Shown here: in pieces, positions 19,734-53,100 of the stretch | How positions within the stretch are numbered: the first letter of the stretch is position 1 | Layout of the letters: each line of letters begins with the position of its first letter | DNA from: Ligula intestinalis | Lineage: Eukaryota; Platyhelminthes; Cestoda; Diphyllobothriidea; Diphyllobothriidae | Length of the DNA: 64,000 nucleotides | Direction: 5' to 3' | Assembly: GCA_036362985.1 (NCBI GenBank) | Contig: JAYGXS010000005.1 | Location: 28,216,220-28,280,219, forward strand | Made by a program: the position numbers and the translations under genes | The notes under the pieces: model-generated | What the model saw: only the letters and a program-made list of their open reading frames with translations | What the model was told of the DNA's origin: nothing | Databases searched by the model: none

Positions 19734-20220
19734 CAGTAGTCGCCGGTTCTAAATCACACCTCGGGCCTAGACCAAACTGGGCTTAATAAGCAGTGGGCGA
19801 AATAACCCGAGAGTCCTAGTTCTTGATTAGCAACCGCAGGATAGGCAATATACATCAAACACGTACTGTATTATGTGTAGAGCCTGCTTGTGTACAAGAA
19901 AAGAATGCTGTTTGTCTGTATTTTTAGGCACTAAAAAAATTATTTGCGACACGTTTAAAAAAGCGATCTAGTGTCAGTTGTTTTGGCGGAAAATTCACTC
20001 GCAAGTGCTCTTTGGTGTCCTTCTCCAGGCACCAGAAATCGTCGAATTTTGTGAAATCTGATACCTGTAGACTCTATTCTATTGGCAAACTGGGCTTTGT
20101 AGCCGGCGACTGGGCTTATTAGCCGGCGGATTTTGCCATGTAAAATTCCGTCCCAAGCTGATTTGGGCTTAATACGTGGCTGGGCCTATTAACCGTGGGC
20201 TTAATAACCGGCGATTACTG
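19734..20220 (+). mobile_element. TA-flanked MITE, copy 1
   Basis: A 487-bp non-coding element running CAG...CTG between two TA dinucleotides (19,732-19,733 and 20,221-20,222). The terminal inverted repeat begins CAGTAGTCGCCGGTT and is matched by the complement at the right end. The terminus is itself one unit of a subterminal repeat, GGGCTTAATAACCGGCGA, which recurs in degenerate form at least six times, mostly near the right end. TA duplication plus a CAGTA terminus suggests a pogo/Tigger-like Tc1/mariner derivative (inference). It encodes no transposase. Confidence 0.85.
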
Positions 20221-20222
20221 TA

Positions 20223-21977
20223 GTAGTTTTTGGTTTAAAGCCTTTATATATTTATCTCCAATTTATACGCAAAGTCAAAGGATCTATACAGTAGAGGATC
20301 GATTTGGCAATAAGAAAACTCCTGATCACTCTTTTACTTGGTTTTTAGGAGAAAAAACTGGGGCTCGTTGAATGATCAAATTTCGGGGCAGGATGGTAAA
20401 GGATCGACACAGGTGCACGGCGTTATCGGTCTCCTTTTAGTGTTGTGGATTGAGTATTCTGCACCAGATAGGTGCCCATGTGACCGAATGTGAATGTGCG
20501 GTCACCATGCGCACAGGTTAGGGAGTTAAGGCTTAGCTTTATGGGTTGATATTAACTCATGAGGACACGTAGAGGAAGTCTGTTCCGACTACTAGTTCAT
20601 CGATGCCAATAGCGCCATGTGTTGCGAAAACGATCGTAGTCAGTTCCCAAAGACACGCATTTGTTAGCCCTAAATAAAATCAGTCATGCTTAGTAAAAAA
20701 ACAGAAGTAATGATCATTCTTTTTTGCTGTTTTCAGCAAATTTAGTCGATATTTCTGAAAATAATCGTATATTTGTTGAGTATAAGGGTCGTCTATGGAC
20801 AAAATTGTTGTAGTAAATAAGAATCGGTCGAGAAAATGCTTAGTTGTTCACTTTGAGGTTTTTGAGCGATCGCATCTAGAGTGTTAAACCATCATGGTAA
20901 GGGGAACACACAATTCTTCATGAGGTTAGCCATATATTATTTGCATATCGCACTTTCAATTACGACTTGTTAATCTGAGACCCAGACTAAAAAGGAGTTA
21001 AGGGGCGTTTTCGAAAATTTGATTCTAAAATGGCTTTACTTCTGTATCGCTCCCATGCCCTGAGCAAACTTAAATTATTTCTTTGAAGACCACGACTATC
21101 TGCACTATCCTATCGCACCATGATTCTTTAAATATATACTCATACTAGACCACAGGAGAGGAGTTTCCAATAATGTCGACTTTTTCCGTAAGGAGCCCAG
21201 CCTAACCAATCGCTTTTCTAGACAAGTCACTCTGGTGGCCAACAGTGATTCATTTTTCAACGCGAACGGCCTCAAGGTCATGTGTCTTCGCTGTGCCGGT
21301 TCTCACTCAGTGAGCTCAAACCTCTGGACGGATGTTCACTCGCACACACACGCACGCAAGCACACATGAACGTGTCACCCTGCGGCCACGGAGCAAGTGA
21401 CCTCGATACTCTAAACTCCTCGAGTAATCCAACGCACCAATCATGCAACACTTGAACTCACTTCACAATCACTTATAAGCAATTCTCACATCTCACCAAG
21501 GGAGTTGAATCAGGCTTTCTGAGGCCTGCAGACTTCCTTAGGCGTTAGTTAACGCAGTCCACACCAACCCGGGCTTTGTTCGTGGCCACTGCAACCCGGG
21601 CCAGCAAATCTGGTTTCTGTACACAATAAAATCCTCATTCGGCTAGCTTCTAATTTTACGCCCTTGGTGTTGTGATTTCCTTGGAGATTTAAACAGGCCG
21701 TAATTCTGTTCGTCCCCGTAACGACATCTGCATACTCAGATTGAAAGTCAGCCCATTCAGTCTGATTAAAAGGCAGTCATATCTGCTAAATATAAACAAT
21801 ATATGGTTATTTTGGAGACTCTTTCCCCATTCTGTGAAAATATCCACATACGATCACCTCTCTTGTCAGAAAACGTGGTGCGCCTGGCCACGCAAACAAA
21901 GTTGGCTGCAAACTGGTGAATAGATGGGAATGAACTGATCGACTTCCTTCGTTTGGATCCTACAACAGATTGCGCAA
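20223..21977. other. Spacer between the two MITE copies; no gene seen
   Basis: AT-rich, then a CA/CG-rich microsatellite at about 21,338-21,367 and a weak third match to the 12.7/18.2-kb repeat near 21,640-21,710. No coding signal. Confidence 0.4.
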
Positions 21978-21979
21978 TA

Positions 21980-22464
21980 CAGTAGTCGCCGGTTATAAAG
22001 GCCACCTCGGGCCCAGACCAAATTGGGCTTAATAAGCGGTGGGCGCAATAACCGGAGAGTCCTAGTTCTTGATTAGCAAACGCAGGATAGGCAATATACA
22101 TCAAACACGTACTGTATTATGTGTAGAGCTTGCTTATGTACAAGTAAAGAGTGCTGTTTGTCTGTATTTTTAGGCACTAAAAATTATTTGCGACACGTTT
22201 AAAAAAGCCATCTAGTGTCAGTTGTTTCGGAGGAAAATTCACTAGCAAGTGCTCTTTGGTGTCCTTCTCTAGGCACCAGAAATCGTCGAATTTTGTGAAA
22301 TCTGATACCTGTAGACTCTAATCTATGGGCAAACTGGGCTTTGTAGCCGGCGACTGGGCTTATTAGCCGGCGGATTTTGCCATGTAAAATTCCGTCCCAA
22401 GCTGATTTGGGCTTAATACGCGGCTGGGTCTATTAACCGTGGGCTTAATAACCGGTGACTACTG
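21980..22464 (+). mobile_element. TA-flanked MITE, copy 2
   Basis: A second copy in the same orientation, 485 bp, flanked by TA at 21,978-21,979 and 22,465-22,466. It is roughly 95% identical to copy 1 by eye along its whole length, including the internal subterminal repeats. Its right terminus gives the better TIR match, CAGTAGTCACCGGTTATTAA against CAGTAGTCGCCGGTTATAAA on the left. Confidence 0.85.
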
Positions 22465-22466
22465 TA

Positions 22467-23481
22467 TGATAATTAGAAGTGATTTTCAGATGTAACAGTC
22501 ATTCTGGCCATAAGTGCATAAAAAGGAAAGATTGTGTATTGGATTTTACTTTGAATCTAGTTAACATTTTACACAGAATGCAAAAGAGTGCATCAACAGC
22601 AGCCACAATTCACCAATCCGATTAGATCAGATCCGCTGTGCTACATGTCCACACGTAAAGGATACAAAGCAAATATTTTGCTAATTTCCCATCAGATTTG
22701 CTCAATGCTGCAAAATCTGGATAAAAATTGTCTGGGTGTGGGGGTGGTCAGCAGTTTGTTTTACATGTGCAGAGCTCAAAGGCTTTGGTTGCAAGTGTAA
22801 AGAAGGTGGTTTGACGCGCCACAACGACATCTCCTGCAACGACTCGACTGAGAAAGGCGGAATTCCATCGCCTCCACAGTGCCTGACAAACACTACAATA
22901 TCAGATAGATCCTTGGCACGCTATGTATGACCTGAAAGGCATTGCCGGCGTCTGTTCGATGGCTGGTGTTTCCTGTCATTCACTTACATTTGCCGCATTG
23001 TGGGACCACCTGCCCCATGATCGTCAATGTGTCCGCTCCTTTATGCGGTTTTCCTGCCGTAAAACGTCAATAAATTGTCTGGTTTGTGTAGGATTCCGCA
23101 CCAGGTTGGCGAGGGCTCGAAACTAGTCGATACCACGCGCTATGCTGATTGGCTTCAGACAGACAAAGCCAAGACGCACGCACGCACACACGCGCCTCGT
23201 GGCCGGGAGCAAACATCTCATCGGCCGTCGTTTGCATCTGGAAATGACTAGCTGTTATTGTCTTCTGTGCTGGGCTTACGCTCACTTGCCTCAGTAAAGC
23301 TTGTTCTATAAGTCTTTCTGTCTGACTGTTTATTATTTGGGAAACTTTTGGCTTTAGCCCATCATTGTCCGACACGTGTTCCCGTGAACAAGTTTCGAAT
23401 TGAGAAGTCAATGAAACCGGTCCAAAGGACTAAGGATTTATTTTAGAGGAAGGAGCTACGACAGCTGGCACAAGTTGTTTA
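22467..23481. other. No recognised gene
   Basis: Short frames only. A CA/CG-rich simple repeat lies at about 23,170-23,195. Confidence 0.4.
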
Positions 23482-23559
23482 TTGGCCTGACGTTCCGGAT
23501 TCTCACTTGAACACAGCGTCTGCGATTGTCGTTGATGATAGGTTCTGCTGTGAATCCAA
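23482..23559 (-). ncRNA. Decayed Penelope-associated hammerhead-like motif (class 2)
   Basis: Read on minus: TTGG, a 13-nt bulge, CCT, a decayed core ATCATCA, a long stem-loop II region, GGAAC, GTC, AGG, CCAATAAAC. Stem I pairs CCT with AGG and TTGG with CCAA. Core residues are mutated, so it should be inactive. The flanking GTCAGGCCAATAAAC block is shared with the 28.9- and 29.2-kb copies. Confidence 0.4.
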
Positions 23560-25695
23560 AAGGTTTTGACTGTTGTCTGAAAATTATATATCTACTTATA
23601 TCGGCAGATATTTCTTGTTTGCCTAACGGATCCCAGAATATTTTATCTTCACAGTTGGAAATGCTGAGAATCCAGCTAAATTGAGGCGCATGAAAAACTG
23701 ACGAACAAATACGCAAAAATTCATGGAAAAGAAGCAAAGTAAAACTCCTCACTGTGGAGAGCAGTCTGCGGAGAGCCAGTCTGCATTTTCAGATTTACTC
23801 TGGGAGGAGGCAAGCTTATGAGAAATATGGGGTTCAACCAAATCTCTTCCCGTTCTTTCCTCGTACTATAATTTATAGCCCATGACATTATACTGCTATT
23901 TTATTGAGCTCCTATGTGATTAATTCCCTTCGCTTTTTCAGAAATAGCTAAGACAGAGCCCACCAGCCACATTGAAGGTGAATGGAATCCATGTCCATAA
24001 CCTGAATCCCTTCATTTAAATACTCCCACCTGAAATAACACGCACAGTGATATCCAGTTAGCTAGTCGAATATTTAGCGAAAATGAACGATCGGTAATGC
24101 GGTCCCACGTTAAAAACGTGTTAAGATAAACCGAACAAGATAGTTATAATATAATGAAATGAGCTGTTTACACCAAGTAGACTCGAACAAAAGCAGAGGA
24201 GCAAATATCAGCTATTGCTACAGTAACACACACTAGTTGAAGTTTTTCGACTAACTGCTAGTGCACGAACTTAAACAAATGAATATAAATGCAAGTTAAG
24301 GAACTGCGTAGCAAATAGAATAAGCAAATCAAGTTGCGTAGAGATAAAAGTATGCGAACGTTGTGGATGAGGAGAAGCATGACAAAGAGTTACCACAAAT
24401 ACCCACAGGAAATGTGTTTGGTCAATCCACATGCTCTACACATACACCTAACGTATTTAAGATCAGCGTACATCCAGATAACTGCTGACCTCGCCTGTAA
24501 CATCCACCCACACGCTGACTTACTGTGGACCTGATGGTCAGCCCTCGAAATGTCTGCTTCATATTGCTTCCGTGAGGACATTCGAGGTAGCGCAACATGT
24601 ATGTTCTATTCAGGCGGCAAATTATGGTTGCTGTGTGCACGCAGCTTTGCCCTTTGTAGAACGCCTTAACTGAATTTAAAAGTAAATCCGAAAACATTAT
24701 GCGCCCTGTTATGCACGCAAGCTTAGGAGGGCTTTTAAAATCTAAAATATCCCTTGAACCATTTAATTGCACATCCCTTACTTAGGGCCTGGGCTAATGA
24801 AGTCAATCATTGCAGCTCCGTTTTGCTAGGACTTGTTCTCTCGTAACAAGATGGCCATATGTGCTTGCGTGACAAGCTGCACCACGTTTTCTGGAGAAAT
24901 ACACAGCGAGCTGGATGTATGTGGTTACAGTTGAAAGACAAAAAATGACACAAAATAAACCTGTGCGGTTGATATATGACTGCTGTGACTGCTTTTGAAG
25001 AGGACTGAAGCTATCCGTTTAAAAACTGACCATACAGCAGTAATGGTAGTGAAATTGCGGTTCTCATGTGCTCAGTCAGAAAAAGGAAGAGCGTTTTGAG
25101 CGGTTGTTTCATCTACCCATATTCAAGTAGCAGTATATAACGAAAGCCATGAGCCGGCGTGTTCAGTTTTTGAAAAGGGGCAAATGAAAATACTATCCGA
25201 AACCTCAGACGAAGGATAACCCCCTCCCGGTGATCGCTTATCCGTCTGCTGTCTCTGCAACCTTCGAATCCCCAAAAATGCTCTCCCTGTCTTTTTTGTG
25301 TGATTATAAATTCAAATGATGATAGCGCAGTAAAATATCGCAAATAGTCATGATGTTTAAAGCAATAATTCCTGGATTGCATAGCGTATGCGATCGTAAC
25401 AAAAGAGTGAAACAATTTGGGAATCAAATGTTTCAGAATATTATCTTAACACCCTGTCGTTCTTGTGTTTGAATTAATTGAAGGGGCGCATGTGGATTCT
25501 TGTCCGTACATGGAAATGCAACGCGATGACAGTGACATTGACCTTAGAATAAATGCCATATTGTGAATAACGCAGTCACGACTGTGTTTAGCTTGCCATG
25601 AAAATAAAACCATGAAAATGTGACCTGTTGGCACTTTCATTATGAACATCTACATAGTACCCAACCAGACTCTGAAACGTTTAAATTATTTTTCG
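23560..25695. other. No recognised gene
   Basis: Open frames of up to about 115 codons on the minus strand (24.4-24.8 and 25.1-25.4 kb) show no family resemblance. Nothing further was seen. Confidence 0.4.
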
Positions 25696-26014
25696 AAGTC
25701 TAGTTTGGTGAGTATACGTATACTTTCGACATGTTCTCGTCAGACCCTACATTTATATGGAAACTGGATGCAAGTTCAGACGTGTGTGTCTTTTCGGACA
25801 AGTGAGCCGTGGGAATGGGGGTGGGGTCGATAAGCGAAGGCTGGTTGTGAGGGTAGGGTGTGATGGATCAGTCTAGGGGGGTGAGGTGGGGAGGGGGAGA
25901 CGGAGGGGGCACGAGGGAAAGGAGGCAAACGTAGCGTGGATGACTGCATGTTGCTAAGTGACTGTGGGCCACGCCAACTGCGGGGCTTGTAGGAAGTCCT
26001 TTTGTGCACACAAC
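25696..26014 (-). repeat. Left inverted terminal repeat of Penelope-like element
   Basis: About 319 bp whose reverse complement recurs at 27,966-28,274 with scattered mismatches and length changes in a G-rich tract. It holds the last codons of the GIY-YIG frame (PAVGVAHSHLAT), a G-rich/C-rich stretch, and the hammerhead motif at its outer edge. Penelope-like elements are known to carry such repeats in direct or inverted order. Confidence 0.8.
25702..25765 (-). ncRNA. Hammerhead ribozyme, complete core (class 1)
   Basis: Read 5' to 3' on minus: AGTTT, 14-nt bulge, GGT, CTGACGA, GAACATGTC, GAAA, GTATACGTATAC, TC, ACC, AAACT. Stem I is GGT/ACC plus outer AGTTT/AAACT; stem II is a short GA...TC hairpin; stem III is GTAT/ATAC with loop ACGT. 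The invariant CUGANGA and GAAA boxes and a CUC cleavage triplet are all intact. It lies downstream of the GIY-YIG frame of the minus-strand Penelope element, where hammerheads are known to occur in this retroelement class. Confidence 0.85.
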
Positions 26015-27660
26015 GCGGGCTTCATCAGCCTGATAGCGGTCGCTTTTGCTGTTCCTAACAGGCGCCGACCCACGGAACTTCGGATAATTTGGTGGGAACA
26101 TGTAAATCACTCGAAAAGCTTTGTTGGGGTCCACCCGATGTCCGGAATCGACCATGTGCGCCAGAATAGAGCTGTTTATGCTCCTGACTTCACCTTTTCT
26201 CCGCCATTCCGGGAGATGTTTCTTATTCTTTTGGATAGGCGCTGGCTCGTGCGACTAATTTAACCTGCTCCACAGGAACAAGTGAAGGAGTAGATGCATA
26301 TTGAGGTGGTCTAAGCTGGTAACCTATCCTTACCTTACCCATGTAATATCGGGTTGGCTGAGAATAATAGCTGAACTCTGGCTGCTGGGAAGGTTCATGG
26401 GCAAGGCGTCTTTTCAGCAGTTAACTTGCTGTGTCCCCTCGGAAGGGGACTTTGAGGAATAGTGTTTTCTTTTCTACAGTAGGTGCTGTGGCTTTTATTT
26501 GTTCCTCAGCCATATTCCTTGTAATAGATCTCCCGGGATACCTGTTCTCACGCGGTAGCTCCTCGAATTTCTTGAGCTCCTCTTCGATACTGTCCGCTGA
26601 GCAAATTTTCCTAGCTCTTTGCACTGAACATCGAAATAGATTTTGCTTCTGTTAAAGGAGTACAAAACTGTTAAACTTCGCGTTCTGTCCAGATCAGGCG
26701 TTCTTTCGATACACGCTCCCTCGGACGGTACCGTCAGATCTGCGACTTAAGGAGGGAAGCAAACCTGACTTTTCCACCTCCAGCGTGAAATTAATGGATG
26801 AATGTCCTTGGTTGACCGCATTTAATGGTGCGTCTACGTCAGTTTTGGTTGCGGTGATCGCAAAGATATCATCAACGTAATGTTTTAACTTGTGGATATG
26901 CTAACTTAGTTGAAATTTCTCCAGTTTGCCCATGAATAGGTCAGCTGGGAGGTTTCCAAGAGGCGAGCCCATGAAAACGCCGTCTATTTATCTGTATAGC
27001 TAGATGTCAAAAAGGAACTGCACGTTAAGTTAGCATTTACGTAATAGTTCCTTCAGTGCATTTGTCGGTATTCCCATGTCCAGCTGATTTGTCACTAGGT
27101 ATTGGCTCATGTAATCTACTGTCTCGGTAACTGGGACGTTTGTAAATAGCGAGAGAGAAAATCCTCATGCCGCTTATATTCACGTCTTTGACGTCGTTAA
27201 TAAAATTGAACGTGTCGAGATAGCTAAGTGGTGCCAGCTGAAGCCGTAAAGGTTTGAGTTTCTCTGCTAACCACTTCGCTATGTCCATAATCGGATGAAC
27301 TGGCAGACCATTCTTATGGATTTCTGGTAGACTATACAAACGGGGGATGTGATTGCCTACTGGTCGGAGGCTTTCGAGGTCACGGTTGCTTATGAAACAT
27401 ATCGTGTGGAGTCTTCGTAAGTAGTCAGTGAAATTTGTCTTAACTTCATCCGTGCAGTCCTTTTTCGTTTACTTTTTCGAATTCGTCTGGTCTGAAAGGT
27501 TGGTTTGTATCTTTCTTATGTAGTCTGCTGTGTTAATTATAACGCCACCCGTTCCTTTATCAGGTCTATTAACCAGAATGTCTTTGTTCTGTCGCAGCTA
27601 TTTTAGCTTTTCTAGATGTGCTTTTGTCAGCAATCATCGGCTTGTGGTGCTCTTGTGCAG
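25960..27660 (-). mobile_element. Penelope-like retroelement: RT plus GIY-YIG, decayed
   Basis: One polyprotein can be followed on minus with a few frameshifts and stops. N-terminal: LRQNKDILVNRPDKGTGGVI. Then LRPVGNHIPRLYSLPEIHK, WLAEKLKPLRLQLAPLSYLD, LFTNVPVTETVDYMSQYL, DGVFMGSPLGNLPADLFMGK, and HYVDDIFAIT with the catalytic VDD at about 26,868-26,879. The connection RYPGRSITRN and LFLKVPFRGDTAS follows. The GIY-YIG endonuclease then reads YSFTCSCGAG, RTSQRLSKRI and VDSGHRVDPNKAFRVIY, with the first tyrosine and following Gly region mutated. RT followed by GIY-YIG is diagnostic of Penelope-like elements. The copy is dead but nearly full length. Confidence 0.9.
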
Positions 27661-27965
27661 ATACTGATGACTACAGTTCACCAGTGTGGATTTAAAGTGC
27701 TGGATACTTTCTGCAGAGATAGGCTTTAAATCATATGTTTGGTTATAAAGATTCTCAAACTAGGTTTCTTATTCTAACTGATCAACCTTTCGAGTAGGCA
27801 TGCAGCATTAAGGACCCAAAGATGATGCTTGAAGTGCTGTTTTATCAAGCATGATAGAAGAGTAGTTGTGTACATGCCGAACTGGATCTATGGGTAGTCT
27901 TGATTGTGGTTTCCTCTTGTGCACGCTGTGTAGGAGTGACGATCTCTTTACGTCCCCACGTTTTG

Positions 27966-28274
27966 TTCCGATTGTTTGCGCACAGAACAAACCTCCAACA
28001 AGCCCCACAGTTGGCGTGGCTCACAGTCACTTAGCAGCATCCACGCTGTGTTTGTCTTCTTCCCCTCGTCTCCCCCTCCCCCCTCCCCTAGACTGCTCCA
28101 GCAAACCCTACTCTCACAACCAGCCCTCGCTTCTCGACCCCACCCCCACCCCCATTCCCAAGACTCACTTGTCTGAAAAGACGAATACGTTTGAATTTGC
28201 ATCCAGTTTCCATAAAAATATGAGACCTGACGAGAATTTGTCGAAAGTACACGTATACTCGTCAAACTAGACTT
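27966..28274 (+). repeat. Right inverted terminal repeat: second PLE 3' end, opposite strand
   Basis: Reverse complement of 25,696-26,014. On + it reads the last GIY-YIG codons (PTVGVAHSHLA), a C-rich tract and a hammerhead motif, so it is the 3' end of a second, severely 5'-truncated copy set head-to-head against the 5' side of the main element. Sequence between 27,660 and 27,966 shows nothing recognisable. Confidence 0.8.
28205..28268 (+). ncRNA. Hammerhead ribozyme, complete core (class 1), opposite strand
   Basis: On +: AGTTT (28,205-28,209), 14-nt bulge, GAC, CTGACGA (28,227-28,233), GAATTTGTC, GAAA (28,243-28,246), GTACACGTATAC, TC, GTC, AAACT. The inner stem I is GAC/GTC here against GGT/ACC in the 25.7-kb copy, a compensatory change that supports the fold. 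Core boxes and CUC triplet are intact; stem III is weaker (GTA/TAC then a C-A mismatch). Confidence 0.85.
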
Positions 28275-28777
28275 CTGAATTCTCTGATGGGAATTTTCGC
28301 AACTATAAAATTATTTTGATTATTAATTTGAATGTAAGATACGTTTTAAGGTGTTTGTGAAAATCTAAATATTGTGCTTGAATACGATTCTTCACAATAA
28401 GATTCTGGAAGAAAGTTCAGAGAAGATCCCTCAGGTTTGGTGAGAGCGAAATCAAGTGAACAACAGGTGTAAAATAAAAAAGCGTCGAGGTGCAATATTA
28501 ATGCCTCAATTCATGCTGCATAATTTGGTTAACCTAAAACATAGAAAATAAATGTAAGTACAATTTAATTTTGTACCTCCGCTCCGCAAGAGGTCAGTCA
28601 CTTACCATTCTGGTCTGAAACATTTGCCATACTCGATCCTTGCACGTGCACACAAGATTAAAAAAGGAAATTCGGACGCCCCTACTGACAGAAGTTAGTC
28701 AACAGAAGTAAATATGCGAGTTCCAGGAAGCAGTTCAGACGAAGAAGATGCGATCGCTGGAACAAGAATTTTATTTG
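28275..28777. other. No recognised gene
   Basis: AT-rich spacer with no coding motif. Confidence 0.4.
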
Positions 28778-28819
28778 CCTAACGTTTCGGCCTCTGTCCG
28801 GAGTCCTTCATCACCAGGG
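28778..28819 (-). ncRNA. Hammerhead-like motif (class 2), core partly mutated
   Basis: On minus: CCT, G, GTGATGA, GGACTC...GAGGCC as stem II with one A-G mismatch, GAAA, CGTT, AGGC. The GAAA box is intact; the first core C is replaced by G. There is no stem III: GAAAC is followed at once by GTT. The sequence then runs into AAATAAAATTCTTGTTCCAG, a block shared with 29.2 and 39.7 kb. Confidence 0.5.
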
Positions 28820-28891
28820 GTTTTAGTTGGTGCGGTGATAGCTTGGCAGTCCACATCCCATTAATTAATTGCCAATACTTCGTCATCCTTG

Positions 28892-28945
28892 TTGGCGGTT
28901 ACCTCACATGAAGAGCTCTTGACAGCATCCTCAATGTCAGGCCAA
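28892..28945 (+). ncRNA. Decayed hammerhead-like motif, tandem unit 1 (class 2)
   Basis: TTGG, CGGTTA bulge, CCT, CACATGA, AGAGC-loop-ATCCT, CAAT, GTC, AGG, CCAA. Stem I (CCT/AGG and TTGG/CCAA) is kept, but the core boxes are mutated relative to CTGATGA and GAAAC. Probably inactive. Confidence 0.5.
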
Positions 28946-29172
28946 TAAACTTCCTGTTCCAGAGATCGAATCTTTTTCTTCTGAGAAATGAGCCAATCAA
29001 ACAATTGACAACGACTACGCTCGCTCACGCTAATTGAACCGAATTTCTACGCTATGCCAGTGAAAAATTGCACCCTCTTCCGACACGTTCGTACTCTAGG
29101 TAGCTTTTGAGGAAAAAGTAGGTGACTCACGCTTGTACTTTGCAGCGAATAGAAGGTAACGCTCTGCTTTGC

Positions 29173-29226
29173 TTGGCGGTAACCTCTCATGAAGAGTTCT
29201 TGACAGCATTCTAAACGTCAGGCCAA
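29173..29226 (+). ncRNA. Decayed hammerhead-like motif, tandem unit 2 (class 2)
   Basis: TTGG, CGGTAA bulge, CCT, CTCATGA (29,186-29,192), AGAGT, 10-nt loop, ATTCT, AAAC, GTC (29,217-29,219), AGG, CCAA. Stems I and II are intact. G5 of the core is C and G12 is T, so two catalytic guanines are lost. Stem III is absent; an ACGT palindrome sits in its place, as in Penelope-associated hammerheads reported to cleave as dimers. Confidence 0.6.
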
Positions 29227-29453
29227 TAAACTTCCTGTTCCAGCGATCACATCTTTCACTTTGCAGAAGTGCGCCAATCAAGCATCTGACTATGACTACG
29301 CTTGCTCACGCTAATTGAACTAAATTCATACGCTAGTCCAGTGAAAAATTGCAGCCCCTTCTGACACGTTCGTACTCTTGGTAGCTTTTGAGAAAAAAGG
29401 CAGGCGACTCACGCTTGTACTTTGCAGCGGATAGAAGGTAACGCTCTGCTCTG

Positions 29454-30070
29454 CCCGTCGCACCAATGGCTCGTTCTGCGCACCTACTTTGCAAAAACCT
29501 CCCATTGGTGGCCTCTTCTGAGGGGCTTATTGATTTGAGATTTCTATTAATAGGAAACCGGAAACTGTTTTCTAAAAATGCACAGTGTAAAGAGTCGTTT
29601 TTACCAGCGACGCATTTAGCTTCATGGCGTGCCCAAGCAAAGATTGAGCAAGAATAGTTGTTGATTATTTACCTTCATTGAGTGCAAATCTTTATTTGAT
29701 TGTTGACATCAAAAACGGCCCCATGGAAAGTGTGCTCACACATTTTATTTTTCTTCGTTCACAGTGTTTCATCTGGGGGCTGATTATCTGCAGTTGGTTG
29801 CATATCTCAAGGTAGGCTGAAGGAAAAAATAGACGCGTCTCCATATCTCTGCGACCAATTTCCGCGGACTGATTCCTCAAAGACTTCTATTGGCCGATGA
29901 CTACACATTCGGCCCCGGAGGACCCAGACAGAAACATCCCAAAGATATGACATATTCTGTCATGAATTAAGGAAAGACTGAGTGGACTGTTACGAGACTG
30001 TCGGAACTGCACACCAGTCCAAATCTACCATGCACGGTATCGTGATAAAATTTCAAGACTGACATAACCC
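29454..30070. other. No recognised gene
   Basis: Short frames only. Confidence 0.4.
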
Positions 30071-30402
30071 CGATGAAAAGTTTGGGGTATTGTATCACAT
30101 CTCCTGTGGACACGGCCCCGTTAAGTCTACAGGTCAGACTAAACGCACGTTCGAATTGCGCATGTATAAACCCATTCCGGTTATTCGACTGTGCGTCCAT
30201 TTTGGACATGAAGCTGCCCACATCTGTGAAATGGGCCACGAGTTCAATTTCATAGCCGTAAAAATAACCACTCACTATGGAAACAATGTGACGCAAGAAC
30301 TGACTGTGGACTAGTCCTCGGATGAGATCTCAATTAAACGATCCATCGAGTTGGCGACCTGCAAAATCAACTCCAGCTGTGTGTCATTGATGCTTGGTTT
30401 GC
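30071..30402 (+). pseudogene. GIY-YIG endonuclease relic of a Penelope-like element
   Basis: The + frame reads GVLYHISCGHGPVKSTGQTK, RTFELRMYKPIPVIR, HEAAHICEMGHEFNF, then a stop near 30,314. This fits a Penelope GIY-YIG domain (V-Y-I-C-C, Y-I-G-x-T, R-E-H, H) with several key residues changed: the second YIG is STG and the E-H glutamate is lost. No RT is visible upstream, so only the 3' part remains. It belongs to a different subfamily from the 26-kb element. Confidence 0.7.
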
Positions 30403-31283
30403 ATCATTAAGCAATGTAACCCTTTTGCATTGCCGTTGCATCTCTGACGGTTTACTCCTGCATGAATTTAAAAGCCCAGAACAATAAGAAAATGGTTTCG
30501 GTTCCACTACATTCATACTTATTTATTAGTATTTTATATCGAGTACAATTTATTAAGACAGCCGACCAGCTTCTTGCCTAGAAGTGGGCATCCTTAAGTA
30601 ATTAAAATTGTATGCTGTATATTGGTTAGTTTTACGACATAAGAAATTATTGCTAACTGAGAATACATTTTTGCATTTGAGATAGCCATCCAAGTATACG
30701 GTGAAAAATAATAAATTTCAAAGTTTGTTCTCTTTAGTTTTGTCCAACAACAACTTTCGGCATGGTGCTGCAGAAAATTGCGCCAATTTTAAGGGACAGT
30801 TTAAAGAGGATTTACTTATTTTTAACTTCAGAAAAAAGCATGCTGTTTTTACGAAGAACGTTAGATTCTTTACCGGAGGTAACTACAAAGTTCGGAAAAC
30901 GTATGTGTTATCATTGAAGGACACTTTTGGAAGAACTGTTCTACTGGTACCGTTCTTACAGGCATTCTGAACAGCGTTAAACAGTGGTGATGGGGTGGTT
31001 TAGGGTTTGAGCGTTCAGGACTTACATCCCATCTTTCAGGTATTTTGGCATCAACCGGTTCTATTTCAATTCACATGAAATAGTTGGATTGAAATAAGTA
31101 ATTTTTCTACTTGTGTCTTCACAGATTCACATACAGTGGCACCTCGGGTGACAAACAGCCCAATCTATAAGCAGGTCAGGCACCGAGCAAGTTACTCGCA
31201 GAAAAGATGTTCCGATTGACGAGCTGCCATGTAGTTAACGGACGGTCAGCGTATGTGGGTTTGCGAGTGACCGCAGTTGCGTC
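30403..31283. other. No recognised gene
   Basis: Low-complexity AT-rich DNA with one 89-codon frame (30,701-30,970, +) that resembles nothing I know. Confidence 0.4.
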
Positions 31284-32010
31284 TTACTCCCCGGGGCGCG
31301 GATCCTCGGTCGCCTGCAGCCAACAAGTGGACTGACGCAATTTTATTGTCTTATGTGCGTGGTCACAGACCATAGACAGCTTATCCTGGCAATTGATTGC
31401 CTGTTGATGCCCATGCAACCCTGTGCCAAGGCGTCTGCCCGTTTTACGAATATACTTTGCATTGGAGTCCTGGCATGGTATGCCGTAGACCACAGCTGAT
31501 TGTTCTGTCAATGGTAGCGGGTCTTTGGGCCTCGTGATCTGCTGTCTGATGACTGACTGGCTTAAAAGCTGCGCCGATGTGAATGGTAACGGCATTCTTG
31601 CGGTCACCTCTGTTACGTTCCTCACATAAGCGATTGCGAACTAGAAATTGGGGTCCTCTCCCTTCAAACGCTAAAGTTGGGACTTCTTGAGACACTTGCG
31701 TACAAAGAGCTTTGGATAACCGTTGGCTTGAAATAGGGAATGCAAGTATTTAATCTCCTCTTTTTCCCACTGTCGGCGCTAAATTGTGTCTGAATGCATT
31801 GAAAGAGGGTTCTCACATTATTGCATTTTTTACCAACCGGGTGGTCCTCTTTAAGTGCAGGATGCGCATGGTGTTGGTTACGTTACGGTAGACCGTTCTC
31901 CTTATCTTAACGTCTTCCAGCTTCATCACTTTTACGTCGAGGAAGGGTAACTGCTTGTTGACCTCTTCTTTCATAGTTAACTGGGTGTCACGAATAAACA
32001 GCATGTTGTT
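31284..32010 (-). pseudogene. Penelope-like element 3' part: RT end plus GIY-YIG
   Basis: On minus, NKQLPFLDVKV (32.0-31.8 kb) followed by TVYRNVTNTMRILH matches the FLDV...R..T.T..L region just after the Penelope RT catalytic core. The linker MPLPFTSAQLLSQSVIRQQI and the GIY-YIG block VVYGIPCQDSNAKYIRKTGR, RLGTGLHGHQQAI follow. At least one frameshift separates the two parts, and the YIG motif is YIR. It is distinct in sequence from the 26-kb and 30-kb elements. Confidence 0.75.
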
Positions 32011-33789
32011 GATTAATGCAAATTTTCATGTAAATGGCCTCAGCGTTGATGCCAAATATATAACGGGTGTTATAAGGGGGCAAATAGTTATGGTACTTTT
32101 AAATGAATGGAAGTGAGGGCATCAAGAGTATATACATAGAAAAGTGCAATCCCATTATTGAATAATCGACTACCTTGGGTCTCTGGATGCCCATTATAGG
32201 GACGAGACAAGAGCCAATGAAAGCAGCGGCAGAAACACGCTTCTGGGCTTTTAGCTAGTACCTGTGCTGTCAGTACGGTAAATTAAAACACAAATTTATA
32301 CTGCTGTCTTCCCGTCGGTGGCCTATGTAGCGACTGGCGCAGTTCAGTCCAAATATAAACAGTGAATTTCGGTCTGTGTGTATGGCCTTGAATGTACTAA
32401 TCTCTAATGAGAATAGAAATTACCTTCTGAGGAAATGAAATAGTTCAATTGTCAAAACCGGTATATCGATCAGAAAGCAAGTATGGAAAGCTGGGGGACA
32501 CACTGATGACTCGGAGCACCCACTTCCCTGTCAAGCAGTGGCACAATACTGGCTAGTATATATGATGTCTTCTATTGTTAATTTGAACAGTTAGGAAAGT
32601 TCTGCACAGCTGAGTTATTAGACCTCAACCAAGGCCGTCAGTTAAGCCATATTAAATTCAAATTTCCACAAAAAATGGGATTATAATCCCGGTTATCAGT
32701 AGCGGCTTCATGGGTCAGGTAGTTAAAGCCTTTTATATACTCATGCCTTGCTCCCTGTTGTGCGTGTAAGTTCGAACCCCACCGTTGCCGCCGAGTGTCT
32801 CCCAAAATGCTCTGATAAAAACCCTTGAATTATTTACTCTGCTTCTGATAGCGAACCATCTACAAAACCTACCAACCTGAATGAAAACAAAATACAAGTA
32901 TTGAAAGAACAACTAGGTAGGGCTACATTTAAGAGGTTTTCCGGTAAGTTGCAAATATTGTTTTGCATATTTTTCACACCAGTCTCCCAGTTTGTCATCA
33001 GACGTCACCTCGCGAGAAAATTTAAGCCGCACCGCACATGACATGCTATCTTTACCGTCAGAGCAACGGTTTCTTTTAAACAAGAAAACTCTTGGCAGGA
33101 TTCCGATAGTATGTTGCACAAATATCATAAAATGAATTCTGCTTGAATTCTATTGTAGTCAGTTTGTGCGCTACGTCAGCCTTTTACTGCAGAAAAACAT
33201 CCAGATATAAGAGTATTTGTAAAGTTCACTTTTACAGTTTTAAATTTATGTCTTTGTTGCCTGTTTAAGGTTGCTTCCTTCATTGAAATTGATTGTCGAA
33301 CCCACAAAGTTTCTTCCTTGTGTAGCACAGACTGTCGTTTACATAGCATCAAATACTTCACTGCAAACAAACGAAATGACTAGATTCTCTATGTAATGGT
33401 CATTTGGAGGCTTAAGGGCAGTGCCATTAAGGACTCTATTTATGTGCGTTAGTCAATACGGATTTGCTAAACTTTTTGATCTGCTTGAAACAAGACACCC
33501 CGCAAAGAGAAAACGCTTTTGCCGCTCAAGGCATATTGCTATGGAAGGAATTTTGACCACAAAGTACTGGCGGCAAGTAATAATGTTGTGGGCAATTATT
33601 ATTTTCCAAAGGTTCACAAGTACCCCTTTTTTAAACCAAAAATTTAATCAGTCCTTATCAAATCGTTTCTCAGCGAGTTCTTCGGTTAAAATACGACCTG
33701 GATGAAGAAGAACATTAATGTTTCATGCGCATGCATTAGCTTCTAACCGGCAAACTTGGGTACAGTAGACTTCATAAGATACCACATCG
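32011..33789. other. Unassigned, apart from the tRNA-like repeat at 32.7 kb
   Basis: Two minus-strand frames (32,913-33,128 and 33,176-33,370) have no recognised motif. I see no other gene. Confidence 0.35.
32701..32805 (+). repeat. tRNA-derived SINE-like sequence
   Basis: Box-A-like TGGGTCAGGTAGTTAAAGC at 32,710 and box-B-like AGTTCGAACCCCACC at 32,769, spaced about 40 nt apart, without a foldable tRNA cloverleaf. This suggests a SINE with an internal Pol III promoter; no second copy was confirmed in the window. Confidence 0.4.
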
Positions 33790-34115
33790 AACAGGCACTG
33801 AGTTTTTGAAGCTTCTTTCTAACTTTTACGAGACCAGCACAACGGACTTCAGCCTAGCATTTAAGACAGTCTAGTCACAGTCTAGTTCTCTGGTGCAGTC
33901 ATTCACATAAATTAGGGACAGTAGTGCTCCTAAAGCAGGACCGTAGGGGACGCCACTTTCAATTTTTTGTGCTCTAGAGAACAGGAACCCTTTTAGTTCA
34001 TAGTATGGACAGTCGGACGCAACATGGACTTCCACACAAAGATCTATGATTTTAAGGATGGCCGTTGCGGCAACAAAAGGTATGATGTAAATTCTTTTGA
34101 AAAGAATGCCCTATC
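33790..34115 (-). pseudogene. Non-LTR RT core fragment
   Basis: On minus, IESGVPYGPALGALLSLIYV followed by NDCTRELDC matches the [20 protein letters not shown] block of CR1-like RT, as in the elements at 1.4 and 34.8 kb. Upstream text (KRAF, then a leucine-rich stretch) fits the preceding KKAFDSVPH region in degraded form. The downstream FADD box is lost. Confidence 0.6.
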
Positions 34116-43059: not shown

Positions 43060-43388
43060 TTTGAAGACTGCATAAACAACAAAATTTAATGGATCCATAA
43101 ATTTCCAGAAGGCCCTTCAGTCGCCACCTTTCGTTGCATAACGGGAGTGAACATCGGAGAAAATACACAACTGAATTCATACAGAAAAAATCGATAAAAT
43201 ACGGCAAGGTCACTTTACATGGCCAAGAGGCATTCGATAAAGCAGAAATTTAAACGCTGTAAACATCAAAAAACTGGAGAAAAATCGTCTAGGCTAAAAT
43301 GGAAGAACATTTGGGGAGAGGAATGTGTAAACAAGGGCCAGTGTGACCAAGTTAGAGTTAGGTTCAATACATGCTCCAATTGTTTACA

Positions 43389-43637
43389 TCAGTCGGGTTT
43401 AAACCGCCTTATGTAGGCTGCCTCCAGGTAGCGTAAGGTGCGAGTTGTTTGTGCTTGAAAAAGTACTCGTAAGGAGGTTTTAGGGTCCACGGAATGGCCC
43501 GTATCAAGCAGGTGTTCAGTGATTGATGAGCGCAGAGTTCGTTTTTCTTGCTGGAACAACCAGCTAGGTAAGTGTTCCTTTGCTCTGGTGGCCAATTGTC
43601 TTTGCGTTTGCCCTATGTACTTGCATACGCAAGTGCA
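43389..43637 (-). pseudogene. GIY-YIG domain, left palindrome arm
   Basis: On minus, starting at the gap: CTCVCKYIGQTQRQLATRAK, EHLPSWLFQQEKRTLRSSI, EHLLDTGHSVDP, RYLEAAYIRRFKPD, stop. The YIG, R, E-H and H residues of the Penelope GIY-YIG fold are intact. The first GIY tyrosine would lie in or beyond the gap. No RT is present, so it is an orphan 3' part with no sign of decay in what is visible. Confidence 0.8.
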
Positions 43638-43647
43638 NNNNNNNNNN
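43638..43647. other. Assembly gap (10 N)
   Basis: Run of exactly ten Ns at the palindrome centre; true gap length unknown. Confidence 0.99.
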
Positions 43648-43896
43648 TGCACTTGCGTATGCAAGTACATAGGGCAAACGCAAAGACAATTGGCCACCAG
43701 AGCAAAGGAACACTTACCTAGCTGGTTGTTCCAGCAAGAAAAACGAACTCTGCGCTCATCAATCACTGAACACCTGCTTGATACGGGCCATTCCGTGGAC
43801 CCTAAAACCTCCTTACGAGTACTTTTTCAAGCACAAACAACTCGCACCTTACGCTACCTGGAGGCAGCCTACATAAGGCGGTTTAAACCCGACTGA
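43648..43896 (+). pseudogene. GIY-YIG domain, right palindrome arm
   Basis: Same protein as the left arm, now on +, ending RRFKPD at 43,896. Both copies point away from the gap, so their missing 5' parts face each other. Confidence 0.8.
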
Positions 43897-44225
43897 TGTA
43901 AACAATTGGAGCATGTATTGAACCTAACTCTAACTTGGTCACACTGGCCCTTGTTTACACATTCCTCTCCCCAAATGTTCTTCCATTTTAGCCTAGACGT
44001 TTTTTCTCCAGTTTTTTGATGTTTACAGCGTTTAAATTTCTGCTTTATCGAATGCCTCTTGGCCATGTAAAGTGACCTTGCCGTATTTTATCGATTTTTT
44101 CTGTATGAATTCAGTTGTGTATTTTCTCCGATGTTCACTCCCGTTATGCAACGAAAGGTGGCGACTGAAGGGCCTTCTGGAAATTTATGGATCCATTAAA
44201 TTTTGTTGTTTATGCAGTCTTCAAA

Positions 44226-48100: not shown

Positions 48101-49644
48101 GGAATTATACAGGAACTGTTTGACTTGATTGGATAAAAGTACAATAATCTTATGCGTATTCGTGTTACACGGCCGAATCAACGCTGCTTTCTGTTCTTCA
48201 CATTGAATAATAAAATTTACAGGGGCACATATGCCTAAGAGTTAGAAGCTTATATATGAATTTAAAATGGACAAAAGTGACTCATTGAGTTAGAGCATTG
48301 GAATTCTAACTAAAAGTTTATGGTTTCGAGGCACGGGTGTTGCAAAATTTGGTTTGCGCGTGACTGTTTAGTGACGGTTAAAAGCCAGAAATGGCCACCT
48401 CACTCTCAGTAGTTTTTTGTCGGAAAGTTTTTATAGTAAAAGTCACTCTGTTGCCATTAGCAGAGTTAAATAGTGAGCCCTAGGGCAAAAAGAGACGAGT
48501 GTGGATCACATTTCATTTATTCAAATTCAAACTTCTGTCATTCTTCAACATAAATCACATACACTGGGTAGTAATTTCGATTAACATTGAAAGAAGTCAG
48601 GCGTGTAGTGTCCAAGAACGTCAAGCCTTTGTTGCTATGACTCATTCTAAGAAGCTCGTAAGACTCTAGATGGTATAAATGTTAGTTATATTTCTTTCAC
48701 GTCGGTATTCCGGAAACATTTTGGTGGAGCATGGTTTTTAAGTGAATTTTATTGGCCAGAAAGTATGGTTTAAACAAAGCTTTTGGAATTTACTGAGTTG
48801 GTTGTCAGGTAGACACAAATTTACATTTCTCTTCATCTAATAACCTCACAGTACAGTTAATGACGGGATTCATAAAGTGTTTTTCAATTAACGATGTACC
48901 TCAAATCAACCGATAACTAATTGAGAGACAGCAATCTCATGCGGCAACTGAATGATAAACGACCATCTGATTTATGGAAATGTAAAAGTATAACTTCAGT
49001 AAAAAATGACAGGATATTTAACAGTACCTTCAGTTGGTGGGGGAACTAAAATCGACCGTAACGTAGGTGGCTGTGTGCTTGGTTACGAAGAAGAAGGGAT
49101 TAACTTTAATTTTAAGTTGAAATTTATAGCACAGTTTAACCAAGGTTAGGTTATGTCAGCAGCTGGCATTGTTGTCCTCCACTTTTTGTAGCTCAGCACC
49201 AGCGAGCACAATTTTTTTGCGTATTTTATCTTGAGGGACCTAATTATAACCTTTGCAGTCCAGCTAACGATTGTCGGGAAGAAACGAAAATGCATGTCAA
49301 ATGGATAGAATTAGTCCAGTGCAAGTACGTTACTGTGCAAGAAGGATGAAATACGCACTACAAAGCTTGAAAATTTTTTTTCTTCCGCTCACTTAAATGT
49401 TTCCGTAGAACTTGTCTAATTTTGAGTTGACCCAATTTTTTGCGGTTTTGGAATCGCCTACTACTCCGTGAGAATTAGGTGTGCTTTGCTCGGTGATGTG
49501 GTGTTGCAGTTATAGTTGACCAAAACGAAACTAAATTGACTTAAATTCGCGGACACGGCCATCGCAGAAGACGGTCGGTGCATAAACAATTGACATCAGC
49601 GTACCACTCCCTTAGGATGTGACATTTACCATTGAAGAATTTAA
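45191..49644. other. Long AT-rich tract without recognised genes
   Basis: Short frames only. A weak tRNA-like stretch (TTGAGTTAGAGCATTGGA, then GGTTTCGAGGCAC) lies at about 48,280-48,345. An isolated GAGTTGACCCAATTTTTTGC at 49,423-49,442 resembles the inverted tail of the 53.8-kb element. Confidence 0.35.
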
Positions 49645-49719
49645 AACTTAAATTGACGAACATACTTTCGCTTTCGACCAGTTTTCTTCAGGCCTATACA
49701 TTTATATCGTATTTAAACT
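49645..49719 (-). ncRNA. Hammerhead-like motif (class 1 relative), partly degraded
   Basis: On minus: TTAAAT, long bulge, GGC, CTGAAGA (fits CUGANGA), AACTGGTC, GAAA, G, CGAA-AGTATG-TTCG, TC, then ATTTAA. Core boxes and a GUC triplet are present. Stem III is CGAA/TTCG with one bulged G, and the outer stem I is TTAAAT/ATTTAA. Inner stem I pairs poorly. It lies about 330 bp 3' of the GIY-YIG relic on the same strand, as in the 26-kb element. Confidence 0.5.
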
Positions 49720-50034
49720 AAGTAAAATAAGCAGATTGGCAGCAATAATCATGTGGTTTTCGGATCGGTCTGAGTGCAAAATTCGGGCAGAACTCTGATC
49801 AGCGTCAAGAAGAACTGGTCGTCGGGCAGAGTAATAAACTGCAGATGGTTTAACTGACAACTTTCGGCCAAAGTAACTGCGGCGCCTTTGCAAAGTACTT
49901 TTGGACGCACAGGGTCGTTTTACAAAACCGAATGCCAGCTACTTCGGCCGTAGCCGTAGCAGAGCTAAAGGTAGCTTTTTAATCATTCGGAAACCATGTG
50001 CGCTAGAATGAAACTTTTAATACTTTTTAGGTTG

Positions 50035-50160
50035 TCCTACCCTTACCTTCTGGAAGATGTTCTCGTAATCTTATGGACAAAGTCCGGCTTTTGCGACCAA
50101 CGTTTTCTGTGTCGTAGGAGCAGATAAATGAATAGATACGCATGTATTTGATCTGGACTA
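50035..50160 (-). pseudogene. Short GIY-YIG relic of a Penelope-like element
   Basis: On minus: FICSYDTENVGRKSRTLSIR then LREHLPEGKGR and a stop. This fits C-x-C...Y-I-G-R-T-x-R-x-L-x-x-R-x-x-E-H-L. Only the front half remains. Confidence 0.55.
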
Positions 50161-53100
50161 CATGTTTGTGCTTGATTTCTCCGTGTAGGATGGGCGTAGT
50201 CAAGCATAGTACATGGTGACTCAAATAAAATTCCTTGTGAATCAGACCAAACAATAATATTTAAACAATTGCGCATGATGTTCTTAGTTAATTCTGATAT
50301 AAATAAATGGGGCTGAATATGATTGATCAAATGTCAACGTATCCTGGCCAAACAGTTTTAAATACCACTCTCTTGGCATCAAGATAAGTTAACGTTAAAA
50401 AAATTTATTGCAAAAACTGGCCCAATTCTGATTATTTATACACACGCTGCTGTTGAAATATCGGCGAAAAGAATGCGGTTCTTATTGCTGATGCACGATT
50501 GTCTGAAATGATAAAGGTTGCGGTTGCATTTATATCAAGACCTCCACAGTAAAACAAATGGGTCCTTTGGCGATTTTTTTTTAATTTCGGCTTAAAGCAA
50601 TTTTTTGAAAACTTATCCGAAGACGAATACGTATCGCCGATTAAAATATAAAAGCTAACCCTGAACATCTTCGATTAATTTGCAATTAGCTAAATCGCCA
50701 CTAAAAAGCTGTATTTGGGTTTAAAATAATTATTTTGCTGACGAATGGTCAATGAAGTGATGCATTTTGTGCTACAGGTGAGGAAAAATTAACGCCATGC
50801 CCTTGCTCTTCAATTCCCCTGATAATCGGCATTTCCGCGGTCACACATTGAATATTCACAAATGCCAGGAAAATAGGAGCACGTTACCACGAACCACCGA
50901 CTGTAGGCCATGCTTAATTTTAGGGCATAAAATTATACAGCTTTAAAAAGCTGTCTTAAAATCGAGAAAATGGTTGCGTTGCTGAAAATAAGGCGTCTTT
51001 TACCTCCCGTTTCACTCGCCGCAAGCATACTAAAAGTTCCTCGCCCTAGTGAGCGATCCTTCCCTGCTTAAACGCTCCATTAACGTTCATCTTACTTGCA
51101 ATAAAAAGAACATTTATAAGGCGTTAATAGTGCATAGTGCAGTTGTCAATATACATAATTACTTGAATACAAAGTTACATTGGTTACACATTCTAAATTT
51201 AAACAGCTTGCGAATGTTGTTTGAATGCAAATAATGCCCTTCCCGTGGGTAGTTAAAACGAACAACCTATCATTTGTCCCAAAAGAGTCTTCGCTCTTGA
51301 ACACAATGCTTTTAATATGCTACTTTTAAGAAGAACTTGACAGAGAAAATTGAAGCAATTTGATTATTTAAAATAAATTATCTCTGTCCCTGTATGATGA
51401 TATAATTCATGAAACTGAAAAGCGTCGGCAGCATGACCTTAAAGTTCCGTTATATCTAAAAAAGATCGATTGTAAAAGGGAGGCATAGATAGAATTATTT
51501 ATAAATTTATCTTACTATAGAAATAAAATTCTCCCATTTAAAGCTGGGAAGTTTTGACGGTGTCGTAAATTATATTAATTAAGGGCCATATATAAAAGGT
51601 AACGACGAAGTGATATGCATAAAATTAAAAACTAATACAAAAGCCGCTCTGTTTACTGCATGGTGTTAGTAAGCCTGTCGGCTAAAAAACAGTGAGCTTT
51701 GTGTGATGATCAATAGGTTAAGTCAACTACTGAAAAAACTCACGTTTCCGTTTCAGTTACATTTTTTGTCCATTTACCTCCTCAGTAGTGAACATATTTC
51801 TAAAACAATTCCGATCTGGGCAAAACTGGAATTTTAATCGATCCAGCATTCACATGCCGAGGGACAGACGATTCCTACCGTCGTAAGTTTGCACTTTTAA
51901 ATGCTATTTAAACTAAACTTAGTTCAGCGATGAACAGAAGACAATTATACAAAACCATTGTGCTTACAGTACGCCGATGAAGACCGTTCTATACACACTA
52001 TCCCCAACTATGCAACTGATCACCTTTCTATTAGTAGTATCTGTCGTTGCCCACTAGATTAAGCATTCATCAAATTCATGTATTAGCAAAAATCCCAGAC
52101 TTCGATAGCATTTTAAATGTTGAAGTAAAGCTTTCGTTTTCAGCTTCTCAAATATGACTGTCTCGATTAGGTCGATGGACTTATTAATAAAGAACGCATT
52201 TAGAGCGTTAGTAAATTTAGAAAAGAATAGTGACCAATTACAGGTTAACTTGCAAGTAAAACGACGTAAAATCAGTTCCTGTATACAAAATTTTGGCCTT
52301 GTTCTCCCCGATGTATAATAAACGGAAAAAACATATTCAAAAAATCTTTTAGTTAAAATTACATTTTCCGGGATGAATACCTTTCAATTTATAGGAAATA
52401 GGCTATGCTTCCTATGTGGTGCACATAGTACTACATTTTAATGGCCGATGGGTCAGCTCGTTATTTTCTTTCCTGCAAAATATATCTATTGATAATTATT
52501 GGTATCATTGCATATTTACATATGTTTCCTTACATTCTGGCAATTTGCTTAACCAGTGGCTGCGCTTGACTAAGTTTGTTAAACTGAGCGTAATCCTTTT
52601 TACCGGAGCGGAATTTAACCTCGACAGTTTAACTAGAGTAAAGTTGCTGCGGACGAAAGCATATGCTATGTTTTCTGCAAGCATGCAAGGCCATGGGGTA
52701 AGAAAAGCAGTTTTTACAGAAAGCCAGACACTTTATCTATTTTTAAATAACACGTTTGTAAATTTGCAAGATGCATTGCCCCAAAATGCAGCAACGTCAT
52801 CTGTGAGTAGTGTTTTGCTAAACCAGCTCTGTCGTCTGCAAATAGAGCCTAAGTAACCTTGGAAAGAATAAATTGTCGAACAGGCATTCTAGATGTTGAC
52901 TTGATCGAAAGATACCTTGCATGTGGCCTAGTTTCTGCTTATATGTTAATCCAAATAAACATTGGCAGTCAAGTCAAGACCTTTTGCATTCATCCGACTA
53001 GATAAAGAGAGTGAAAACCTATTACTGTTAAAGAGAAAGGTCAGGTCTCTCGTCTACTGCACAAGTTTTCAGTATGCTTCAGGCAAGTAAAATCGTCAGC

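Follow-up and report, generated by a model that had tools for sequence, protein, structure and literature searches.

Can a hammerhead ribozyme outlive the mobile element that carried it into a genome? The question is raised by a 64,000-nucleotide stretch of the Ligula intestinalis genome (contig JAYGXS010000005.1, positions 28,216,220 to 28,280,219, forward strand; hereafter the window), in which a Penelope element with a dead protein frame bears an outward-facing hammerhead motif near each edge. A preliminary description of this DNA, made from its letters, had suggested that the RNA part may outlive the coding part. Following it up computationally, we read the locus, with a probability of about 0.82, as an old, 5′-truncated Penelope insertion composed of two head-to-head cDNAs, whose hammerhead was selected during replication of the family and has been drifting afterwards.

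The insertion and its two hammerhead motifs

The insertion ends in two arms, A on the left and B on the right (coordinates in Table 1), that form an inverted repeat with 79% identity over 309 aligned columns, and a 10-bp direct repeat brackets the whole inverted unit. In a chance control, a shared 10-mer occurred in 2 of about 2,000 random window pairs and in 18 of 2,000 AT-rich pairs, but the stretches compared at the insertion (60 and 80 nt) were longer than those of the control (40 and 50 nt). The protein frame between the arms is dead, as had been described: by tblastn it falls into three pieces that occupy two frames, contain 6, 7 and 5 stops and are 49 to 66% identical to one Sparganum proliferum protein, residues 1 to 112 of which have no counterpart in the insertion. 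The protein similarity extends to position 25960, into arm A, and 10 of the 12 homologues listed come from Sparganum or Spirometra. With the Pfam model RVT_1, one of the three frames scanned in the broken copy matched at 19.4 bits, below the cut-off of 29.6; the Sparganum protein reached 31.6 bits, and RVT_1 passes the cut-off on the Sparganum homologues. The C-terminal pattern YIGxT...R...H...E, which we take to be that of Penelope endonucleases, is conserved among six homologues; a search for similar solved structures returned none at E ≤ 0.1. Arms in inverted order, a tail and a short target duplication, all present here, are features of Penelope inserts as described in PMC3846280. A retrozyme, in which hammerheads stand in direct repeat around a noncoding unit, is ruled out, since the arms are inverted and enclose a protein frame. 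Penelope-type reverse-transcriptase pieces, inverted arms and a hammerhead near each outer edge thus bear out the first naming of the locus as an inverted Penelope element edged by ribozyme motifs.

The two motifs were confirmed in place and strand by reading the sequence and by a descriptor scan of both strands of the window, the only two matches of which were exactly A and B. Dinucleotide shuffling gave a mean of 0.04 matches over 100 shuffles, four of which had one match, with a descriptor composed after the motif had been seen. Both motifs follow one layout (AGTTT - 14 nt - 3 nt - CTGACGA - 9 nt - GAA A - 12 nt - T C - 3 nt - AAACT), so the outer stem I, AGTTT/AAACT, is indeed unchanged, and both carry the core CUGANGA ... 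GAAA ... UH in a three-way junction of type I, Penelope-type. The further statement that the ribozymes are complete and intact holds for these core parts but has to be qualified for the fold: stem II has only two pairs, stem III of motif B consists of the closing A-U and three pairs followed by a C/A mismatch where motif A has a fourth pair, and the hammerhead is not the minimum-energy fold of either. In motif A, stem III forms a palindrome of 12 nt, or of 14 nt if the closing A-U is counted, and would lend itself to intermolecular pairing. The Rfam hammerhead models, which the preliminary description had called for, miss both motifs at threshold. None matched at E ≤ 1 across positions 20,000 to 34,000, and 151-base stretches around A and B matched RAGATH-1-hammerhead alone (15.0 and 15.9 bits, the cut-off being 56.3), with no further hammerhead family at E ≤ 10; R1, a model built on 47 copies of the family, scored A and B at 94.7 and 98.1 bits, both being within its training set.

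Proposed formation of the head-to-head arms

Copies of the family were sought in the assembly (644 Mb, 2,377 contigs) with one 132-nt arm, which gave 492 first-look candidates, 40 of them scored. The family alignment holds 47 copies from 38 fetched stretches and the window, whose own two are included; two of the copies represent a divergent subfamily. A tail was present on exactly one arm in all eight inserts that could be scored by eye (the window, L014 twice, L020, L022, L024, L026 and L037), L015 and L027 being unscorable. Direct repeats at the outer ends measured 10 bp in the window, 12 bp in L022 and 8 bp in L037. The last (448-2939), a young inverted insert, is a head-to-head palindrome of two Penelope copies of 1.1 to 1.2 kb that both enter the protein frame and are identical over their outer 276 nt; in a young insert, then, both arms come from the same or a near-identical template. 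Both window arms run uncut through the predicted cleavage site and end shortly past stem I. The same holds for most of the copies in the alignment of 47, though this sample is biased by having been fetched with an arm that includes that end.

We propose that the ribozymes face outward because two cDNAs from one RNA 3′ region were joined head-to-head. The RNA template would have extended only slightly 3′ beyond a small type I hammerhead, and both cDNAs would have begun at that RNA 3′ end; the tail would stem from one of them having started some 30 nt further outward. Synthesized on opposite strands, presumably by two-strand target priming, a long cDNA with most of the protein frame and a second one of 285 nt would have been joined head-to-head, leaving an outward-facing hammerhead at each edge within a 10-bp target duplication. 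Selection would keep the hammerhead while the family replicates; once inserted, it would drift like the remainder. A Penelope protein has been reported to cut and extend both target strands and to begin reverse transcription internally, the tail was matched to the stretch between two start sites, unprocessed RNA was inserted in vitro, and the hammerhead did not cleave without protein (PMC11167929). The element of that study, PAc (Poseidon, from Anolis carolinensis), is like ours a Penelope with a hammerhead; its reverse transcription begins 3′ of the hammerhead cut and unprocessed RNA is reported as the dominant template, whereas in the window insert the hammerhead is located 3′ of the frame, and the stretch searched yielded no downstream copy. 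The Penelope inserts of the rotifer Adineta vaga (PMC3846280, the main text of which does not contain the word hammerhead) share head-to-head arms, a target duplication of about 10 bp, a tail on one arm and truncated copies with the window insert, beside which, unlike theirs, no direct copy of an arm was found.

The model given for these rotifer elements differs from ours: copying is primed by an antisense transcript folded back on itself, which makes the second arm a duplicate of the first. That paper favors such self-priming because palindromes lie at the inverted junction, reports head-to-head as the most frequent arrangement, and L037 is a near-perfect head-to-head palindrome. For the present family we consider it possible but doubtful. 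The second arm enters the protein frame in L020 and L037, and the length of the inverted match varies from insert to insert, with 55 nt in L027, 59 in L015, 81 in L024, 84 in L022, 89 and 110 in L014, 179 in L026, 309 in the window, 531 in L020 and over 1.1 kb in L037. Such a spread is expected of two separately truncated cDNAs, and the tail sits on one arm only; these arguments are all indirect. In three of the ten inserts measured (L014, L022 and L024) the match is 81 to 89 nt, barely above the length of the hammerhead. That the fold is kept mainly as a structural handle for starting reverse transcription, rather than for cutting RNA, seems to us improbable; were it true, a head-to-head insert would represent two start events on one ribozyme-shaped landmark.

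Probable constraint before insertion and drift after it

Between arms A and B, 11 of 72 positions of the ribozyme end differ, against 28 of 180 elsewhere in the arm (Fisher p 1.0). The arm alignment comprised 45 of the 47 copies (the two divergent ones were omitted), and substitutions were counted in 41 of these after removal of two copies that were too short, one identical and one near-identical row. Private substitutions occupied 51 of 2,618 cells in the hammerhead and 91 of 4,034 in the flank (p 0.43); the core is intact in 26 of the 41 copies, compared with 27.4 in simulation, and changed in 15. The suggestion that the RNA part may outlive the coding part therefore found no support as an effect of selection, for arm divergence is equal inside and outside the ribozyme end and private changes are not rarer within the ribozyme. 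Shared variants filled 51 of the 2,618 cells in the hammerhead but 230 of the 4,034 in the flank; the p of 6e-15 treats cells as units although they are not independent. The constraint visible in these variants points to the time before insertion, a dating that we infer. In our reading, constraint acted during copying of the family, and the motif stands intact beside a dead frame because, at 64 nt, it is a smaller target than 2 kb of coding sequence and has not yet been hit.

The inner stem I had been presented as a compensatory difference, GGT/ACC in A against GAC/GTC in B. The difference is exact, but a single compensatory change between the arms is ruled out: the family consensus is GGC/GCC, and each arm departs from it by its own double change. 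GAC/GTC recurs in a single further copy, L046. In simulation, one or more compensated pairs arose by chance with a probability of 0.030 to 0.046 for B and 0.046 to 0.068 for A (transition fractions of 0.5 to 0.8), and three compensated pairs were seen over the 41 copies against 0.34 expected (P 0.005), two of them being the window's own.

A compensated pair in each motif might speak for selection of the window ribozymes after insertion, perhaps as a domesticated RNA that outlives the protein. So might the preservation of the core and all 14 pairs in both, for which the simulated chance was 0.035 to 0.069 (B) and 0.019 to 0.041 (A) over the same transition fractions, and 0.022 and 0.011 with the spectrum of singleton changes. 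We nonetheless judge selection after insertion very improbable. The arms have diverged equally inside and outside the ribozyme end, and neither private changes nor the number of intact cores in the family departs in the direction it would need. With the window left out, a compensated pair remains in one of 39 copies, the expectation being 0.34 for all 41, and the window was chosen because of its pair. Moreover, a through transcript of the insert would carry only one of the hammerheads in its sense form, the other appearing as its complement, and the inverted arms could form a long duplex competing with the hammerhead (about -443 kcal/mol, ViennaRNA duplexfold), which makes cleavage in such a transcript doubtful. 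Because A and B occupy opposite strands, no hammerhead dimer could form on one RNA.

Evidence that the helices themselves matter came from the family. In the 41 copies, 551 pairs are formed compared with 536.5 after random placement of the changes (reached in 0 of 1,000 placements), and hence the helices were constrained at some time. Covariation within the close family is modest, with 6 double-change cells against 1.1 in shuffles. Across subfamilies the double-change cells numbered 71, where shuffling gave 21.6 and slid controls gave 6 to 25; they covered 12 of 14 pairs in all four helices, on an alignment fitted to the model. On an unfitted, plain MAFFT alignment and for the inner helices only, the count was 18, which none of 500 shuffles reached (their mean being 6.2); the 17 divergent rows alone gave 10, with 4.8 in shuffles, 2 of 500 of which reached it. 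This unfitted test used 40 rows (39 distinct) of 51, with 11 short-stem-III rows omitted, the 51 being the matches of a second model, R2, less one identical copy. Covariation in homologues thus supports the helices of the hammerhead. That the motifs are chance resemblances, or lack a hammerhead fold and are conserved on other grounds, for example to bind a protein, is hardly credible: it could appeal to the subthreshold Rfam scores on the window copies, to the lack of any Rfam hammerhead at E ≤ 2 in five further loci and to RNAalifold, which gave no consensus fold, but the descriptor shuffles, the double changes in all four helices across subfamilies, those in the inner helices of the unfitted alignment (the divergent rows included) and the reported general occurrence of hammerheads in Penelope-like elements (PMC6155905) speak against it.

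Several results weigh against the reading of the locus as two joined cDNAs with a formerly selected hammerhead. As for the insertion, four of the seven inserts examined for a target duplication (L019, L020, L026 and L027) show only 6- to 7-mers, the window arms share 84.5% identity over 252 positions without being mutual nearest relatives, and the arm tree is star-like, silent on whether the arms share one template. As for the protein, the Pfam GIY-YIG model gave no match on two homologues, nor at E ≤ 10 on two homologues and one window frame. As for constraint, the shared and private tallies count cells; by site, shared variants fall at 8 of 64 hammerhead and 25 of 100 flank positions (p 0.07), a comparison that leaves out the most variable stretch of all, the seven nt immediately 3′ of the motif, which were tallied apart. 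As for the fold, RNAalifold predicts no pair, and ViennaRNA places the hammerhead at +2.2 (B) and +2.3 (A) kcal/mol, compared with minimum folds of -13.1 and -5.5.

Family copies, related elements and the rest of the window

Table 1. Features of the insertion and of a second Penelope-type element in the window.
Feature	Position	Strand	Basis and remarks
Hammerhead motif A	25702..25765	-	Sequence reading, descriptor scan, covariance model R1; predicted cut, read from the letters, 3′ of C25,710, between 25710 and 25709 (CUC/ACC)
Hammerhead motif B	28205..28268	+	Sequence reading, descriptor scan, covariance model R1; predicted cut, read from the letters, 3′ of C28,260, between 28260 and 28261 (CUC/GTC)
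Left target-site duplication AAATTATTTT	25683..25692		Identical 10-mer at 28308-28317
Terminal arm A: last codons, 3′ untranslated part, hammerhead; no tail	25695..25997	-	Sense to protein frame; inverted copy of arm B
Broken Penelope-type frame	25960..27978	-	tblastn; residues 113-808 of the 809-residue Sparganum protein
Terminal arm B, inverted, head-to-head with truncated frame	27991..28275	+	Inverted-repeat alignment
Tail extension, arm B only	28276..28304	+	Common to tailed copies in family alignment, missing from arm A; judged by eye
Right target-site duplication AAATTATTTT	28308..28317		Identical 10-mer at 25683-25692
Third hammerhead motif, divergent subfamily	49643..49715	-	R1 47.9 bits, E 1e-8 (untrained copy); R2 60.2 bits (in training set)
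C-terminal protein remnant of second element	49859..50200	-	tblastn; residues 676-808 of the Sparganum protein

Model R1 gave 49 matches at E ≤ 0.5 in 22 sources and R2 gave 52 at E ≤ 0.1 in 42 sources, 18 of the hammerheads found by R2 lying in the five further loci mentioned above. In twenty arbitrary stretches totaling 80 kb, R1 matched once and R2 twice at E below 0.01; two R2 matches per 80 kb would correspond, very roughly, to 16,000 hammerheads in the genome, with a Poisson range of about 2,000 to 58,000. An exact 35-base search in viral contigs found no match. Among 25 pairs of hammerheads within 3 kb of each other, 12 face outward, 4 inward and 9 the same way (p 0.011 against 25%), an outward excess that is suggestive only, as the search had matched some inserts at both of their arms, at least the L009 pair has no inverted match and the L026 pair joins two subfamilies. 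Recurring outward-facing pairs fit the head-to-head inserts already described for Penelope.

The third hammerhead of the window sits 3′ of a second Penelope-type fragment and has a weak outward-facing partner at 50289-50361 (+; 19.7 bits, E 0.14), the core of which is broken; positions 49643-50361 may represent a further old inverted insert. We set down as chance a match at 36498-36552 (+; 14.9 bits, E 0.74). Outside the window, L011 carries two hammerheads of a subfamily with a short stem III in direct tandem (2454-2608, starts 87 nt apart), which is the arrangement that dimer cleavage is said to require. Divergent hammerheads whose stem III is nearly loopless were seen at L009 5897-5965, L011 2454-2521, L024 3044-3110 and 3261-3327, and L028 430-498.

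Minimal type I hammerhead ribozymes of Penelope-like elements were reportedly described by Cervera and de la Pena in 2014 and by Lunse et al. in 2017. The motifs studied here resemble such minimal hammerheads in their terminal-arm position, CUGANGA/GAAA core, short stem III and weak monomer fold, and several subfamilies share the palindromic, nearly loopless stem III of those said to cleave as dimers. They differ in their tapeworm host, in their subfamily, which has a longer stem III and a two-part stem I, and in falling below the Rfam threshold. That hammerheads, minimal variants among them, are established in Penelope elements, as the preliminary description had it, is stated in PMC6155905 and PMC7761336, the second of which describes their role there as unknown. 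In the titles and abstract openings on hammerhead ribozymes with Penelope-like elements, cestodes and flatworms, we found no report of tapeworm Penelope hammerheads.

Elsewhere in the window, positions 43060-44225 form a perfect 583-bp inverted repeat with a Penelope-type C-terminal fragment on both strands; the only run of N in the window (43638-43647) lies at its center, and the repeat is probably an assembly join rather than biology. A LINE-like element at 1425-5400 (+) has a 1,033-residue open frame with endonuclease and reverse-transcriptase domains (Pfam) behind a 295-residue one, and a second at 35029-37383 (+) has two open frames, the first with a subthreshold endonuclease match and the second with RVT_1 above the cut-off. 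A 554-residue open frame in one piece at 61265-62929 (-) encodes a ligand-gated ion channel with 81 to 83% identity to three proteins of the Spirometra group and, along 73% of the frame, 90% identity to a protein of Dibothriocephalus latus. This frame places the host among the tapeworms, near Spirometra and Dibothriocephalus.

Penelope elements have been put at about 10% of two genomes of the Spirometra group (PMC8166898). Because the Rfam models fall below threshold on the copies examined here, Rfam-based surveys may undercount hammerheads in tapeworms. The family offers many copies, young head-to-head inserts with identical arms, and subfamilies that differ in the form of stem III; with such copies, constraint acting on a Penelope hammerhead before insertion can be told from the drift that follows it.
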